64,000 nt of DNA, taken from assembly GCF_000455345.1 (NCBI RefSeq), contig NZ_HG315690.1, positions 2,766,339 through 2,830,338 of the forward strand. The letters are read 5' to 3'. Position numbers and translations under genes: made by a program. Each line of letters begins with the position of its first letter. The first letter of the stretch is position 1. The DNA is from Halopiger goleimassiliensis. GTDB lineage: Archaea > Halobacteriota > Halobacteria > Halobacteriales > Natrialbaceae. Below, in pieces: positions 4,544 to 17,707 of this stretch. Below the pieces are notes generated by a model. That model saw nothing but the letters and a program-made list of their open reading frames with translations. It ran no database searches and was not told the DNA's origin.

Positions 4544-6742
4544 ATGAGCGAGATACTAACCGTCGAGAACCTACACACGCAGTTCGACACGGCCGACGGT
4601 ACCGTTCGTGCAGTCGACGGCGCGTCGTTTTCCGTCGAGAGGGGTGAGGTCGTCGGTATCGTCGGCGAGAGCGGCTCCGGCAAGTCCGTAACCGCCAGAT
4701 CGATCGTCGGCCTCCACGACCCCGGCGAGATCGTCGCCGGATCGATCGTCGTCGACGGCGTCGACGTGACCGACGCGACCGACGCGCAACTCCGTCGACT
4801 CCGGGGGAACACCGTTTCGATGGCGTTTCAGGACCCCACCGAGACGCTCAATCCCGTCTTCGACGTCGGCGAGCAGATCGCCGAAGCGATCCGGGTCCAC
4901 TGCGATACCAACTCGCAAGCGCTGCTCGATTACCTCCACGTGCCGCTTTTCAGCCGCCGATCGGCCTGGCGGGACGCACGCGAGCAGGCGATCGACCTCA
5001 TGAAACGGGTGGGAATCGCTTCGCCCGAAGACCGCGTCGACGCCTACCCGCACGAACTCTCCGGCGGGATGCGTCAGCGTGCGATGCTCGCCATCGCGCT
5101 CGCCTCGCAACCGGACCTCCTGCTCGCCGACGAACCGACGACTGCCCTCGACGCGACGACCCAGGCCCAACTGCTCGAGTTGCTCCGGGAGTTGACCGAC
5201 GAGCGCGACCTCGCCACCGTGTTGATCACCCACGATCTGGGCGTCGTCGCCGACGTCTGCGACCGCGTCGTCGTGATGTACGCCGGCGAGGTACTGGAGA
5301 CTGGACCGACCGATCGCATCCTCGAGGACCCGCGTCATCCCTACACCCGAGCGCTGCTCGCGTGTCTCACCCAGCGTGCCGACCCGAAATCGCGGGTGCC
5401 TGCCATCGAGGGGCGACCGCCGGAACTACACGCCAAACCGGACGGCTGCCCGTTCGCTCCGCGGTGTTCACACGCTACCGATCGCTGTCGGACCGGCGAC
5501 GTCCCCACCGTCGACCTCGAGAGCGGCACCGTCACGTGCGGCGAACCGATCGCCCTGGAGTCGGCCGACGCGCCGCCCCACTCGAGAGTAGCCGACGGCT
5601 CGAGAACGGCAACCTCGGGGACGGGATCGACCCCGTCGGAGACGACAGCCCCCGGTTCGCCGCTGGTCGACCTCTCGGGCGTCACCAAGCGATATACGCT
5701 CGACGACGGCCTGCTTGACGGGATTTTCGGCGAACGCCGGGAGCTGCCGGCGGTCGTCGACGTCGATCTCACGGTCCACGAGGGCGAAACCGTCGGTCTC
5801 GTCGGCGAGAGCGGCTCCGGCAAGTCCACCGTCGCCGACCTCGTCACCGGGCTCGAGGCTCCGACGGACGGTGAGGTCCGCTTCGACGGGACCCCGGTGG
5901 GGACGGCACGCGACCGCTCCGCGGACCAACTGGCCGACGTCGGCGTGGTCTTCCAGAATCCCCGGTCGAGTTTCAACCCGCGTCGGACGGTCGAGCGGGC
6001 GATCGCGGAGCCGTTGCGCCAGCAGGGGTGGTCGCGCGAGCGTCGCCGGGAGCGGGTCGCGGACCTGCTCGACCGCGTCGGCCTCTCGGAGACCCACGCG
6101 TCGCGGTATCCCCACGAACTCTCCGGCGGCCAGATACAGCGAGCCGCGATCGCTCGAGCGATCGCACCGAATCCGCGGCTGCTGGTCCTCGACGAACCGG
6201 TGTCGGCGCTCGACGCCTCCGTCACGGCCCGGATTCTCAACCTGCTGCTCGACCTGCAGGCGGACCTCGAGTTGACCTACCTGCTCATCTCTCACGACCT
6301 CGACGTCGTCGCCCACGTCGCCGACCGGATCGCCGTGATGTACCTCGGGACGGTGATGGAGGTCGGTCCAGCGGACCGGGTGCTCGACGACCCGACCCAT
6401 CCCTACACGCAGGCGTTGCTCGAGGCGATTCCGTCCGTCGATCCGGACGACGACCCCGCCGTCCCGCTCGAGGGGGACCTCCCCCAGTCGGTCGAGCCGC
6501 CGGCCGGGTGTCCGTTCCACACCCGGTGTCCGATCGCCGAACCACGATGTCGGACCGAGACGCCGACGTTCACGTCGATCGACGCGACGCGATCGCGCTG
6601 TCATTTCGCCGACGAGTTCAGCCGCGACAGCGGTAACGAGCACGAGGAACGGGGGACCGACCGCCAAAACGAGCACGAGGACCGGAGGACCGACCGCCGA
6701 ACCGACGAGGCGGTTCGCCCCGATCGCTCACGATCATCCTGA
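4544..6742 (+). CDS. Fused double ATP-binding protein (DppD-DppF type)
   Basis: This 732-residue protein carries both ATPase domains of the importer on one chain. Each half has a Walker A GESGSGKS (near residues 43 and 422), a signature motif (LSGGMRQRAMLA and LSGGQIQRAAIA), and the C-terminal Cys-rich oligopeptide/dipeptide transporter domain (GCPFAPRCSHA and GCPFHTRCPIA). These Cys-rich tails are known to bind an iron-sulfur cluster in some peptide ATPases. The start ATG at 4544 lies 2 bases after dppC; the frame is open further upstream, but that part overlaps dppC. The tail after residue 700 is a low-complexity Arg/Glu/Asp stretch. In most bacteria the two halves are separate genes. Confidence 0.93.
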   Translation: MSEILTVENLHTQFDTADGTVRAVDGASFSVERGEVVGIVGESGSGKSVTARSIVGLHDPGEIVAGSIVVDGVDVTDATDAQLRRLRGNTVSMAFQDPTETLNPVFDVGEQIAEAIRVHCDTNSQALLDYLHVPLFSRRSAWRDAREQAIDLMKRVGIASPEDRVDAYPHELSGGMRQRAMLAIALASQPDLLLADEPTTALDATTQAQLLELLRELTDERDLATVLITHDLGVVADVCDRVVVMYAGEVLETGPTDRILEDPRHPYTRALLACLTQRADPKSRVPAIEGRPPELHAKPDGCPFAPRCSHATDRCRTGDVPTVDLESGTVTCGEPIALESADAPPHSRVADGSRTATSGTGSTPSETTAPGSPLVDLSGVTKRYTLDDGLLDGIFGERRELPAVVDVDLTVHEGETVGLVGESGSGKSTVADLVTGLEAPTDGEVRFDGTPVGTARDRSADQLADVGVVFQNPRSSFNPRRTVERAIAEPLRQQGWSRERRRERVADLLDRVGLSETHASRYPHELSGGQIQRAAIARAIAPNPRLLVLDEPVSALDASVTARILNLLLDLQADLELTYLLISHDLDVVAHVADRIAVMYLGTVMEVGPADRVLDDPTHPYTQALLEAIPSVDPDDDPAVPLEGDLPQSVEPPAGCPFHTRCPIAEPRCRTETPTFTSIDATRSRCHFADEFSRDSGNEHEERGTDRQNEHEDRRTDRRTDEAVRPDRSRSS

Positions 6743-10516: not shown

Positions 10517-12116
10517 GGAGGACGAGATCGACCCCGTGACCCTCGAGGTACTTCGGAACCAGCTCGAGAGCGCGGCCGAGGAGATGGGACAGGTGCTCAT
10601 CCGGGGCGCGTACTCTCCCAATATCAAGGAGCGCCAGGACTGCTCGACCGCGCTGTTCGACCGCGAGGGACGGCTGGTCGCCCAGGCCGAACATATCCCC
10701 GTCCACCTCGGGGCGATGCCGGAGGCGGTCGCGGCCGTCCTCGAGCGCGATCCGCGGCCGGGCGACGTGTTCGTGCTGAACGATCCGTTCACCGGCGGCA
10801 CCCACCTGCCGGACGTGACGCTCGTCTCGCCGCTCGCACCCGACGGGGAGATCGTCGGCTACGCCGTCTCGCGGGCCCACCACGCCGACGTCGGCGGGAT
10901 GACACCCGGCAGCCTCCCCGCCGGTGCCCGCGAGATCTACCAGGAGGGGCTCCGGCTCCCGCCGACGCGGCTCGTCGAGGGCGGCGACCGCAACGAGGAT
11001 CTCGAGTCAGTCCTGCTAGCCAACGTCCGCAACCCGGAGGAACGGCGGGCGGACCTCCGCGCCCAGCTGGCCGCCAACGAGCGGGCCGAAACCCGTCTCG
11101 CGTCGCTGTTCGACGAGCACGGTCGCGAGCAGGTCCTCGCGGGGTTCGACGCGGTGATCGACTACTCGCAAGAGCGGATGGAAGCCGCCATCGCGGAGTT
11201 GCCCGATGGCAGTTACGAGGCCGAAGACGTCCTCGAGGGCGACGGCGTGACCGACGACGACGTCGAGATCCGCGCGACGGTGACGATCGACGGGAGCGAG
11301 ATCACCGTCGACTTCGCGGGGACGAGCCCCCAAGTCGCGGGCAACGTCAACGCGCCGCGGGCGGTCGCGACGAGCGCGGTCTACTTCGTCGTCCGGTGTC
11401 TGACCGACCCCGAGATCCCGCCGAACGAGGGCTGTTACGAGCCGGTGAACGTCGAGATCCCCGACGGTAGCCTCCTGAACCCCGACCCCCCCGCGGCCGT
11501 CGTCGGCGGCAACGTCGAGACCAGCCAGCGGGTGACCGATGTCGTCTTCCTCGCGCTGGGCCAGGCCGCGCCCGAGCGCGTCGCCGCCCAGGGTCAGGGA
11601 ACGATGAACAACCTCACCGTCGGCGCGCGCGACGACTCGTTCACCTACTACGAGACGATCGGCGGCGGCTTCGGCGGCCGGCCCACCGCCGACGGCATGG
11701 ACGGCGTCCAGGTCGGCATGACGAACACGCTCAACACGCCCGTCGAGTCCATCGAGACCGAGTACCCGCTGCGCGTCGAACGGTACGCCCTCCGTCCCGA
11801 CACCGGCGGCGACGGCGAACACCGCGGCGGTCTCGGCCTCGAGCGACGGCTCCGCCTCGAGGTACCGGCGACTGTCTCGGTGCTGACCGACCGTCGCCGT
11901 CATCGACCGCAGGGGATCGACGGCGGCGAACCGGGTGCGACCGGCGAGAACCTGATCGACGGCGAGCCGATCGGCTCGAAGACGACCGTCGACGTCCCCG
12001 CCGGCACGACCGTCACCGTCCGCACGCCGGGCGGCGGCGGCCACGGCGATCCGGCCGAGCGCGACCCCGCCGCGCGGGAGCGGGATCGACGAGACGGCAA
12101 GGTCAACGAGGACTGA
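10509..12116 (+). CDS. hyuB: Hydantoinase B/oxoprolinase family protein, subunit B
   Basis: This 535-residue partner of HyuA starts DEIDPVTLEVLRNQLESAAEEMG, the usual N-terminus of the family. It carries ILRGAYSPNIKERQDCS-like and VLNDPFTGGTHLPDV motifs (residues 35-105) and ends in the glycine-rich VRTPGGGGHGDP. The ATG at 10509 was chosen because it overlaps the hyuA stop (ATGAGTGA) and lacks extra N-terminal residues; the frame stays open upstream but inside hyuA. Together with HyuA it should act on a hydantoin-like or oxoproline-like amide. Confidence 0.92.
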   Translation: MSEEDEIDPVTLEVLRNQLESAAEEMGQVLIRGAYSPNIKERQDCSTALFDREGRLVAQAEHIPVHLGAMPEAVAAVLERDPRPGDVFVLNDPFTGGTHLPDVTLVSPLAPDGEIVGYAVSRAHHADVGGMTPGSLPAGAREIYQEGLRLPPTRLVEGGDRNEDLESVLLANVRNPEERRADLRAQLAANERAETRLASLFDEHGREQVLAGFDAVIDYSQERMEAAIAELPDGSYEAEDVLEGDGVTDDDVEIRATVTIDGSEITVDFAGTSPQVAGNVNAPRAVATSAVYFVVRCLTDPEIPPNEGCYEPVNVEIPDGSLLNPDPPAAVVGGNVETSQRVTDVVFLALGQAAPERVAAQGQGTMNNLTVGARDDSFTYYETIGGGFGGRPTADGMDGVQVGMTNTLNTPVESIETEYPLRVERYALRPDTGGDGEHRGGLGLERRLRLEVPATVSVLTDRRRHRPQGIDGGEPGATGENLIDGEPIGSKTTVDVPAGTTVTVRTPGGGGHGDPAERDPAARERDRRDGKVNED

Positions 12117-14562: not shown

Positions 14563-14671
14563 CCGAATCGGGCGCGGCGCGTGATGACCTACGACCGGGA
14601 CGACGTCTCGCAGACACCCCACCCAGCCGACGGTAACGACAGTCGAGAAAACGAGGTCGCCCGGCGGGGCG

Positions 14672-14890
14672 TCACGGCTCCCGGTCGACCACCGTCACGC
14701 AGTCGGGGTCGATTTCGACGCGGTAACCGGCGTAATCGAAGCGAACGGTGACGGCGGGGTTCGACGCGAGAACGGCGGCCAGCGCCTCGGGGTCGACGGC
14801 CCTGTATAGCGGTGGTAGGTCCGTCCGGTCGCAGCCCTCACGGGCCGCGATGCGATCGAGTACCGTGACGAGTGCCGGGTGCACGATCAC
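14672..14890 (-). CDS. HalOD1-domain protein
   Basis: The 72-residue protein is a single HalOD1 output domain. It has a helix ALVTVLDRIAAREGCD, the motif DLPPLYRAVDPEALAAVL, and beta strands VRFDYAGYRVEI and CVTVV. HalOD1 domains occur in haloarchaeal signalling proteins and as stand-alone proteins of unknown mechanism. Its first 53 bases overlap the end of the zinc-ribbon gene upstream in another frame, so the two are probably co-translated. Confidence 0.75.
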   Translation of the reverse strand: MIVHPALVTVLDRIAAREGCDRTDLPPLYRAVDPEALAAVLASNPAVTVRFDYAGYRVEIDPDCVTVVDREP

Positions 14891-15017
14891 CGTCGGGGTG
14901 TTCGATCAGCGAGAGTTCGAACGCCGTCTCGCAATCGGGGCAGCGTGCTGGATCGTCCGGCGTCGTGATACGGACGGCTGTGCCACAGTCGCAGTGGATG
15001 GTGATACTCGAGACCAT
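14838..15017 (-). CDS. Small zinc-ribbon protein overlapping the HalOD1 gene
   Basis: An ATG at 15015-15017 opens a 59-codon frame whose product begins MVSSITIHCDCGTAVRITT. It carries CDC near residues 9-11 and CPDC near residues 26-29, a compact zinc ribbon. The frame continues to a TGA at 14838-14840, 53 bases inside the HalOD1 gene. The clean Cys pattern and the start position support a real gene. The last dozen residues, in the overlap, are Arg/His-rich and probably not conserved. Confidence 0.6.
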   Translation of the reverse strand: MVSSITIHCDCGTAVRITTPDDPARCPDCETAFELSLIEHPDGDRAPGTRHGTRSHRGP

Positions 15018-15111
15018 GTCTGAATCGGATCGCTGGCCCCGACGTAGCAGGAGTCGATCCAGCAGGTAAATCGGCGACAGTGGCGACTGGTCGGCGGACG
15101 TCGGCAGGTCT

Positions 15112-15117
15112 TTATTT
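15112..15117 (+). promoter_or_regulatory. TATA-like box before the candidate RNA
   Basis: CTTTATTTC around these positions is the only AT-rich block in the area. It sits about 25 bases before the first paired base of the RNA candidate, as expected for an RNA gene promoter. Confidence 0.45.
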
Positions 15118-15132
15118 CGCCAACGACAATGG

Positions 15133-15262
15133 TGGATTGCTCCCGCTACGCGGGGGCGACCGTTGAGCCGGAGTGTGAGCTTGGTCGTGAGGACTCCGGC
15201 TCAGCGCACTTTCGTGCGCGTCTGTGCGGTACGCAATCTATCCTAAAGAACGGTAGGATGCT
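15133..15262 (+). ncRNA. Candidate multi-helix structured RNA
   Basis: The segment folds into a closed multi-branch shape. GATTGC at 15136-15141 pairs with GCAATC at 15234-15239 and encloses three hairpins: GCTCCCGC/GCGGGGGC (15140-15158, 3-base loop), a perfect 11 bp stem TGAGCCGGAGT/ACTCCGGCTCA (15165-15175 with 15194-15204) and a perfect 6 bp GCGCAC/GTGCGC with a TTTC loop (15205-15220). The first hairpin shares two bases with the closing helix. A last hairpin ATCCTA/TAGGAT lies at 15241-15260. A TATA-like box lies about 25 bases before the first helix. The frame through it (15129-15344) codes for nothing recognisable. I do not know the RNA family; GTGA...GTGAG in the 18-base loop could form a kink-turn, as in H/ACA guides. 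Confidence 0.55.
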
Positions 15263-15449
15263 GACTGGTTGGCCGTCTCGCCTGTGCGGTGACCCATCGC
15301 GAGCGTCACCGTCGACCGTGGACCGTCCGACCAGACGAAACTGAGCGGAACGAACCGGCCTGGACGCGTCCAGCCTATCACGGTGCCGGCATCCGTCTAG
15401 GTATCGGCGACGCTTCGACCACGGCCACCGATGCGGTCGAAACCGCCCG

Positions 15450-15914
15450 TCAACACGGCGATCCCGGAAGGTACTCGCCGCTCGAGATCGCCTCGAGTTG
15501 CATCCGATCACCGGTCGTCATCGCCGAGTAAATGACGAACCGAAACAGGCTGGTCGGCCGGCCGCCGTCACAGGTGACTTCCTGCGTCGCCTCGTACGTC
15601 TCGTCCTCGACCCGGACCGTCGCGAGGACGCGTTCGCCATCCGGTACTCGAGCGATGTCCGCGAGCGAGATCGTCTTCCGGTCGTCGACGGCGTTCGGTG
15701 CCGGAATATCGATCTCACCCTCGAACCGAGTGGCGTCGGAGTCGTCCATAACTCGTACCTCCGCACTGAACTGCTCCGGTCGGGCGTTGAGGATCGTCAC
15801 GTTCACTGGAATTAGGTCAGCCCCACCCGACAGACATCCGGATACCGAAAGTACCCCGGTAGAGACCCCACTGGCGAGGAATCGGCGGCGACTAAAGACG
15901 GATTCACGACTCAT
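15450..15914 (-). CDS. Small Tat-exported lipoprotein, unknown role
   Basis: The 154-residue protein starts MSRESVFSRRRFLASGVSTG and has the lipobox VSGC near residue 27, so it should be Tat-exported and lipid-anchored. The mature part is a predicted beta sandwich (VNVTILNARPEQFSAEVRVMDDSD, VLATVRVEDETYEATQEVTCDG) typical of small haloarchaeal surface lipoproteins. No enzyme motif is visible. An AT-rich ATTATATC at 15929-15936 may be its TATA box. Confidence 0.75.
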   Translation of the reverse strand: MSRESVFSRRRFLASGVSTGVLSVSGCLSGGADLIPVNVTILNARPEQFSAEVRVMDDSDATRFEGEIDIPAPNAVDDRKTISLADIARVPDGERVLATVRVEDETYEATQEVTCDGGRPTSLFRFVIYSAMTTGDRMQLEAISSGEYLPGSPC

Positions 15915-16131
15915 GAAGACTCGTTTTCATTATATCGTAGTGTTTCTTTCGAAGAGACTATTCTAGGAACAAGGTGAGCCGACTTCGCTGCGCCGTTGGC
16001 CCGAGAAATCCGAACACCTCGCCGGATTCGACCCTCCTAAAGAATACTGACTGGTCGGAGCAGTTGGTAAAGCCCCAGATGAGGGAACCGCCGTCTGTAA
16101 CCAGCGGCCACGACGTCCCCAGAGACACCGG

Positions 16132-17340
16132 TCAGTCTCGGTCGGAAGCGGTACTCTCCAATCGACGGGCCAGAGCATAGCTCCCGCCAGCTAGTGCCGT
16201 CAGTGCCCCGGCGAATCCGAATCCGGGAATCCCATCGTCCTCGTCCGATTGCGTCGAGCCGTCAGGAACCGTGCGAAGTTCCGGGTATCCTGGTGGATCG
16301 GTAACGACGCGCCACCGCTCCTCGAAGTCCAGCGTCGACATCGTCTGAGCGGCGGATTCGCCCTGCATCTGGTCGGTCTCTACTCCAGCAACGTCACCGC
16401 GGACCTCGATCGTTCCATCGGACTCGGAGGCGAAGCCAACCGGGTCCGTCTGCCCGGTGGCCTGCGTGTCCCAGTAGCTATCCCGCAGGATTGCATCCTC
16501 GTCAGCGTCGAGGAAGTAGACGCCGAGTTGCCCGACGAGACCACCGACGTCGTCCTCGCCGGAGACGTCGCCGCTAGCCCACGAGTTACTCACCTCACCT
16601 TCTACGTTCAGGCCGACGAGGCCCCCGACTTGTTCCTCACCGGTGACATCGACGCTGGCCGACGATCCCACCACCTCAGGGCCGTGGCCGTTGACTCCGA
16701 CAAGACCGCCGACCTCCTCATCGCCAGTGACGTCACCACTGGCCGATGCCCCTCTCACCACGTCGTGGTTCGTCCCGATGAGACCCCCGACTTTTTCCTC
16801 ACCGGTGACATCGACGCTGGCTATCGTCCGTTCTACCGTCCCGTGGTTTTGCCCGACGAGACCGCCGACCCACTCGCCGCCAGTGACAGTACTATCGACG
16901 AGCCTGACCGCGGAGATGGTTGCATCGTCGGTCAGAGCGAACAGTCCGACCTCGCGATCAGTCGGTCGATCGATAACGAGATCACGGATCCGGTTACCCC
17001 GTCCGTCGAACGTTCCACTGAACTCGCCAATCGGATCGAACCCACGACCGTCGTTGGCGTCTTCCCCGGCGATTTCCTCGTAGCCGTCCGTGTCCACGTC
17101 GAGATCGTTCACCAGCACGTAGTCGCCCTGGAGGTCGTCACGAACGGCGTCGAGATCGTGCCAGTCCTCGATCTCGATAGCACTCTCCTCCGAGTCGTCC
17201 TCGTCGGCGACTGCGAGGCTGACCGGCTCGCCGGTGAGAGAGACACAGAATGCAGTTCCAACTCCGATCGCTCCGGCCCGGGAAAGAACGCTTCGACGGT
17301 CGACGTGTGATGGAGCCGGATCAGTGGCGTCGTCGCTCAT
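16132..17340 (-). CDS. GLUG-repeat surface protein with PGF-CTERM anchor
   Basis: The 402-residue secreted protein has a Tat-like N-terminus (HVDRRSVLSRAGAIGVGTAF) and a core of GLUG-type repeats. The repeat unit VGGLVGQNHGTVERTIASVDVTGEE recurs about five times with variations such as VGGLIGTNHDVVRGASASGDVTGDE and VGGLVGVNG. Such repeats form beta-helical surfaces in adhesin-like proteins. The C-terminus DDGIPGFGFAGALTALAGG plus basic residues is a PGF-CTERM signal, which is cut and lipid-anchored by archaeosortase. I chose the ATG at 17340; ATG 17349 would add three residues. No partner genes are evident. Confidence 0.85.
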   Translation of the reverse strand: MSDDATDPAPSHVDRRSVLSRAGAIGVGTAFCVSLTGEPVSLAVADEDDSEESAIEIEDWHDLDAVRDDLQGDYVLVNDLDVDTDGYEEIAGEDANDGRGFDPIGEFSGTFDGRGNRIRDLVIDRPTDREVGLFALTDDATISAVRLVDSTVTGGEWVGGLVGQNHGTVERTIASVDVTGEEKVGGLIGTNHDVVRGASASGDVTGDEEVGGLVGVNGHGPEVVGSSASVDVTGEEQVGGLVGLNVEGEVSNSWASGDVSGEDDVGGLVGQLGVYFLDADEDAILRDSYWDTQATGQTDPVGFASESDGTIEVRGDVAGVETDQMQGESAAQTMSTLDFEERWRVVTDPPGYPELRTVPDGSTQSDEDDGIPGFGFAGALTALAGGSYALARRLESTASDRD

Positions 17341-17707
17341 TAATTCCATTGTGTCCGATGAGAACAATCAAGGTTGCGATACTGTGAGTTAGAACGGAAC
17401 GTCGCGAAGACTACCTACTCGAAAACGAACACGAGCGCGAACTGACAGTCTGCCTCTCGTTTCGGCCTTCCGTTCCGGTATTCTGACCCTACACTCGAGC
17501 CGATCGAGGCGGTCTCGAGGTTCCTGCGCGACCAGTACGTGACCGCGACAGCCGTAGCCAACTGCTACGTGTTCACGATGGCAGGTCACTTCGGAGTACC
17601 AGCCTATCGCGACGGCGGGCACGCCACTCTCGAGGGTCCATTCGCGACCCTCTCGCACCCACCGCCATCCCGACACGTCTTTCACCCGCTCGTCCGTAGG
17701 CGGAGGT
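17341..17707. other. Divergent intergenic region
   Basis: This 367-base gap separates the GLUG gene and the RNase gene, which point away from each other. I see no gene or repeat. GGAGGT sits directly against the RNase start codon, too close to act as a normal ribosome binding site. Confidence 0.5.

Follow-up and report, generated by a model that had tools for sequence, protein, structure and literature searches.

The question raised by this locus is what is encoded around positions 15112–15262 of the window (the whole 64,000-nucleotide stretch of Halopiger goleimassiliensis DNA that was analysed), where a first-pass annotation had read a discrete RNA gene, and how the locus relates to its neighbours. 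We put at about 92% the probability that the locus holds a genuine, new gene for a structured RNA and that this gene is tied to a pair of small protein genes. The family, of about 135 nt, is previously undescribed and absent from Rfam, and it adds to the known RNAs a strongly covarying one; the portions of the open literature on HalOD1, DdfA and haloarchaeal zinc-finger micro-proteins that were available to us make no mention of such an RNA, though an earlier description elsewhere is possible. What the first reading missed is that the gene is multi-copy, that it stands head-to-head with a zinc-ribbon/HalOD1 gene pair and that it stands at one edge of inserted DNA. The RNA gene and its parts are as follows.

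15139–15273, plus strand: structured non-coding RNA gene (predicted transcript), delimited by conservation, covariation, promoter spacing and the loss of conservation at its end
15098–15106, no strand assigned: conserved block ACGTCGGCA, directly upstream of the TATA box
15111–15117, plus strand: TATA box of the RNA gene (TTTATTT)
15128–15129, plus strand: promoter-proximal AA, at -11/-10
15139–15146 with 15150–15157, plus strand: hairpin P1 (8 bp)
15165–15174 with 15193–15202, plus strand: hairpin P2, with a small apical helix
15204–15219, plus strand: hairpin P3 (GCGCAC-TTTC-GTGCGC)
15220–15259, plus strand: probable helix P4, GTCT (15220–15223) with GGAT (15256–15259)
15243–15273, plus strand: conserved 3' tail CTAAAGAACG(G/T)TAGGATGCTGACTGGTTGG and junction to variable DNA, from the alignments and a synteny break in 13 Natrinema loci

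Of 125 genomes of the family that were searched at the DNA level, 30 had matches, and the conserved stretch runs from 15084 to ~15273. The element itself lies where it had been placed, its end at 15262 having been set too early. The genome of H. goleimassiliensis carries three copies, of which the other two are 89% and 86% identical to that of the window, and its relatives within Natrialbaceae have up to eight, the genera recognised being Natrinema, Natrialba, Natrarchaeobius, Halopiger, Halobiforma and Natronococcus. A first covariance model (R1) recovered the RNA in 34 of the 392 genomes of the class, mostly from the same family but including diverged copies in two other families, and a second model (R2), refined with these diverged copies, in 36. 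No match was found outside the order in a phylum-wide sample of 295 genomes, nor in collections of plasmids, phages and viral contigs. At some loci (L033, L126, L124, L043), two or three modules form arrays, 0.9–5 kb apart and with other genes between them; in the array of L033, the copies lie at 2030, 7720 and 9207, a decayed copy is found near 11113–11229, and a MazE/PIN pair and transporter genes separate the modules.

Archaeal promoters have a TATA box near -27 and a proximal element near -10. The TATA-like box of the first-pass annotation is present as described (TTTATTT) and corresponds to positions -28 to -22 from P1, which are A/T in 98–100% of the Natrialbaceae copies (64); in 11 diverged copies, it is found at an equal distance from P1, even though most of the intervening positions differ. 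Likewise, the promoter-proximal AA is A/T in 100% of the near copies and in 91–100% of the far ones. Since this spacing is fixed in both near and far copies, the predicted start falls at or beside 15139, and the RNA should be transcribed from its own promoter, starting at the first hairpin. The block ACGTCGGCA, near-invariant in Natrialbaceae copies and lost in far copies, is a possible regulator site. At the other end, the boundary is set at ~15273 because conservation stops there; no obvious terminator was found at this 3' end.

The region 15112–15262 folds at -70.5 kcal/mol (z = -4.5), none of 200 shuffled sequences being equally stable, and the predicted transcript (15139–15275) has a z of -3.4. 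In the unfitted alignment of 51 family copies, P1, P2 and P3 are 98–99% paired, which bears out both the long stem (10–11 bp, here P2) and the 6-bp stem with a TTTC loop (P3) of the earlier reading. When the diverged copies are added (69 sequences), the proportions of paired cells are 98.7% for P1, 98.5% for P2 and 98.6% for P3, with four, five and two pairs, respectively, showing two-sided changes. Covariation of the paired positions in homologues was the test set beforehand, and both partners turned out to have changed in 15 pairs (shuffles: 5.1 ± 1.4), in an alignment that is fitted to the model but with which the unfitted one agrees in direction; overall, 97.9% of the cells are paired, compared to 28–57% when the partners are slid. 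For example, GAGCCGGAG/CTCCGGCTC in P2 becomes GAGAGGGAG/CTCCCTCTC and GAGAAGGAG/CTCCTTCTC in other copies, while the apical pair is G-C in 29 and C-G in 28. In six of the 51 copies (L013, L015, L025, L037, L041, L044), the apical part of P2 is inverted (CCAA, not TTGG), apparently through an inversion between the two arms of the stem; this suggests that what matters is the stem and not the orientation of the loop. Among the cells that are not Watson–Crick, G.U wobbles largely outnumber A.C ones (231 vs. 17), which points to an RNA made from the plus strand and speaks against both the minus strand and a DNA hairpin. Together with the promoter spacing, these wobbles support the prediction of a separate RNA gene on the plus strand, served by a promoter of its own.

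The overall architecture has to be revised, however. A closing helix GATTGC/GCAATC had been proposed to enclose the hairpins in a multi-branched structure, but its A/T pair (columns 7/115) is broken in 14 of the 51 copies and the C opposite the inner G is replaced by G in several of them; moreover, a start at 15139 would leave most of GATT outside the transcript. A better description of the RNA is a row of three hairpins (P1–P3) followed by a conserved 3' tail. The further hairpin is present at 15240–15259, albeit weak, with 88% of cells paired and no two-sided change; it overlaps the probable helix P4, which is paired in 99% of the cells of the unfitted alignment, its variation being all one-sided.

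As to the identity of the RNA, no match reached the gathering score of Rfam in the window and the diverged loci, and the best one at a permissive threshold was unrelated (E = 3.1). ARAGORN detected a single tRNA in the window (tRNA-Ala at 6535–6622), with neither tRNA nor tmRNA at the RNA gene. These results agree with the initial view that it is not a tRNA, RNase P or SRP RNA, and extend it to any Rfam family. By eye, a C-like motif (ATGRTGG) precedes the predicted start and a D-like CTGA is often TTGA, while no ANA box is found at a constant position in the RNA copies, as regards box C/D and H/ACA RNAs, respectively. A protein-coding sense, already denied by the first-pass annotation, was rejected: the copies (142–148 nt) differ in length by single bases and each plus-strand frame is open in at most 10 of the 51.

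On the minus strand, two overlapping genes face the RNA.

14838–15017, minus strand: zinc-ribbon protein of 59 aa (CxC...CxxC), head-to-head with the RNA, recognised by a zinc-ribbon profile
14672–14890, minus strand: stand-alone HalOD1 protein of 72 aa (PF18545, E = 1.5e-16)

With 60.7 bits against PF18545 (cut-off 26.3), the 72-aa protein is a member of the HalOD1 family, while the cysteines C9, C11, C26 and C29 of the zinc ribbon are invariant (alignment A4), and the zinc-ribbon proteins beside RNA copies (42–60 aa) form a subfamily with an RGP C-terminus. AlphaFold models the zinc ribbon as a small two-strand ribbon (mean pLDDT 73), the model of the HalOD1 protein (mean pLDDT 63) being insufficient for a fold search. 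The two genes overlap by ~50 nt (14838–14890) in different frames, as they do in nearly all copies, and may thus be translationally coupled.

This arrangement is not peculiar to the window. We compared the 750 nt lying divergently upstream of 76 RNA copies with a matched 750 nt downstream: the zinc ribbon is encoded upstream in 69 copies, HalOD1 in 64 and at least one of them in 72, whereas neither occurs downstream of any of the 76. Four copies have no partner at all, two of them with undetermined bases at that place. All diverged RNA copies but one (L110) have retained one or both partners, zinc ribbon and HalOD1, in an unchanged orientation, and the divergence of the RNA correlates with that of the protein region (rho = 0.60, partly through shared ancestry), the RNA having diverged less. 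Conversely, zinc-ribbon matches better than E = 1e-13 are confined to RNA-positive genomes. Yet, the idea that the zinc ribbon always marks the RNA throughout the class was rejected, since its weaker, diverged stand-alone relatives in other genera have no RNA, nor do ~22 of the 25 HalOD1 genes of the H. goleimassiliensis genome. Hence, neither protein family needs the RNA. On the strand divergently upstream of some other HalOD1 genes (L092, L097, L090, L098), strong folds are predicted (z -4.1 to -5.1, from 25 shuffles and for the best of several windows), which might possibly be further RNAs.

The surroundings of the module were then compared among genomes; the features concerned are given below.

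14563–17700, no strand assigned: insertion between a DUF7562 gene and an RNase R-like gene, these flanking genes being 41–240 bp apart in 17 relatives
16038–16055, plus strand: shortened duplicate of the RNA 3' tail (TAAAGAA-TACTGACTGGT), 0.77 kb downstream and inside the insert

In the window, the 3.1-kb insert begins with the module, followed by two accessory genes (lipoprotein and GLUG-protein genes). Apart from the three full copies, the tail duplicate is the genome's only fragment of this kind (none for the reversed control); it suggests a nested insertion or a recombination between modules. In 13 Natrinema genomes, the module occupies one and the same locus, between two genes that we take to be pabA and pabC (from their sequences, without a profile search). 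At these 13 loci, synteny spans the module, is lost precisely at the 3' end of the RNA and returns after 0.4–7.5 kb of species-specific DNA, while pabA and pabC are directly adjacent in RNA-negative Natrinema genomes. The copies of the pab locus resemble one another more than they resemble the other copies of their own genomes, for both the RNA (distances 0.146 vs. 0.172) and the protein region (0.199 vs. 0.260), which implies that the module has resided there for some time. We read the module as one that is acquired at sites of chromosomal insertion, the variable accessory genes on the 3' side of the RNA arriving together with it or after it. As a genomic signature, it predicts where insertion hot spots lie in Natrialbaceae.

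The cargo is heterogeneous: restriction-like or ATPase genes occur in some species, the cargo of two species including a large PHP/AAA-like ATPase and a GHKL-ATPase/methyltransferase cluster, with unrelated genes present as well, so that the idea of a cargo made of defence genes was dropped as not consistently true. Short repeats (~170–180 bp, ~90% identical) are common to the cargo of different copies and genomes, downstream of the RNA (L183, L184, L186). For a second copy of H. goleimassiliensis (2588570), the search for an empty site gave an unclear synteny. At L251 (C1 near 1059003 in the same genome), the pabA homologue is followed by a frame resembling an RNA polymerase B subunit, not by pabC.

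What the RNA does is a matter on which we lean, at a little under even odds, towards a protein-partnered regulatory RNA working with its own small protein(s). This reading draws on linkage. The RNA, the zinc-ribbon micro-protein and the stand-alone HalOD1 would make up a three-gene module, in which the RNA, presumably transcribed from the plus strand, and the protein pair are read away from each other out of a shared intergenic promoter region; the RNA hairpins would be bound by the zinc ribbon and probably also by HalOD1, and the RNA would control its partner proteins or be controlled by them. A bolder version, which we regard as a long shot, is that the RNA and the two micro-proteins constitute a new archaeal ribonucleoprotein module at chromosomal hot spots, governing the capture or the expression of the accessory genes that gather at the RNA 3' end; if true, HalOD1 proteins would gain an RNA-linked function.

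Other explanations compete with a protein-partnered RNA. The best of them, though rather unlikely, is an addiction or defence module, in which one of the small proteins would be toxic and neutralised by the RNA, alone or with the other protein. It would explain the patchy (30 of 125 family genomes), multi-copy and island-edge distribution, and is consistent with the arrays, one of which includes a MazE/PIN pair, and with the restriction-like or ATPase cargo at the insertion sites of some species; haloviruses also encode HalOD1 proteins (PMC5847659). Yet, the RNA is divergent and devoid of the tandem repeats of known RNA antitoxins, the module proteins match no toxin family in Pfam or NCBIfam, and in the H. 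goleimassiliensis copy at 2987627 an intact RNA adjoins a decayed HalOD1 reading frame. Slightly less probable is an independent trans-acting sRNA that base-pairs with distant mRNAs, the neighbouring proteins being merely co-inherited: a predicted promoter of its own, a tail that is likely single-stranded and a better conservation than that of the adjoining genes would all fit, but mere co-inheritance would not keep a head-to-head linkage that persists across families and insertion sites. We hold it doubtful that the RNA gene is above all an integration landmark, its 3' end serving as a recombination site in the manner of tRNA 3' ends and its own function being secondary. The synteny break at the 13 Natrinema loci, the position of the window insert, also on the RNA 3' side, the tail duplicate and the decayed 3' copy that ends an array speak for this idea, whereas no direct repeat of the RNA 3' end was found at the far end of the Natrinema cargo (13 loci), no integrase was recognised in the inspected cargo, and the covarying hairpins would need another explanation. 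Finally, a minus-strand, riboswitch-like leader of the zinc-ribbon/HalOD1 mRNA, or a DNA-level hairpin element, is very improbable, despite the intergenic region shared with the protein genes and the inverted P2 arm of some copies (expected if a DNA palindrome alone mattered), for the wobble asymmetry and the fixed plus-strand promoter spacing put the RNA on the strand opposite to these genes, and the conserved promoter that such a leader requires would have to lie past 15273, whereas conservation stops there.

The proposed protein-partnered RNA can be set against several known systems. Protein-binding regulatory RNAs, such as CsrB with CsrA, carry a repeated GGA-loop binding motif; the RNA of the window is likewise short and multi-hairpin and could titrate or serve a small protein, but it has no repeated motif of this sort and is divergent to the protein genes. 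In type III toxin–antitoxin systems, the toxin is immediately preceded, on its own strand, by an RNA made of tandem repeats. Our module shares with them the combination of a small protein and a structured RNA, as well as a patchy distribution, but its RNA is single, divergent and of unique sequence, and thus falls outside that type. tRNA genes serve as integration sites, and the 3' end of the RNA gene similarly borders variable DNA, with the difference that a clear att repeat is missing from the far end and that no integrase was recognised in the inspected cargo.

On the protein side, PMC6562870 describes haloarchaeal one-domain zinc-finger micro-proteins (<70 aa), several of which are important for biofilm formation and swarming, with strong deletion phenotypes; the zinc ribbon of the window is similarly small, but in its subfamily the C-terminus is RGP, the gene overlaps one for HalOD1 and there is linkage to an RNA. 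HalOD1 is a widespread domain whose mechanism is unexplained, with more than 2,000 stand-alone proteins spread over almost every haloarchaeal genome (PMC5847659), and the DdfA protein of Haloferax volcanii is needed for the disk cell shape (PMC10869688). The 72-aa protein belongs to the same family, slightly below the cut-off of the DdfA equivalog profile NF053557 (62 vs. 70 bits), and it differs in having an RNA and a zinc-ribbon partner, of which the consulted parts of these two papers make no mention. With an RNA tied to one HalOD1 branch and its zinc-ribbon partner, the module offers a concrete biochemical hypothesis for HalOD1.
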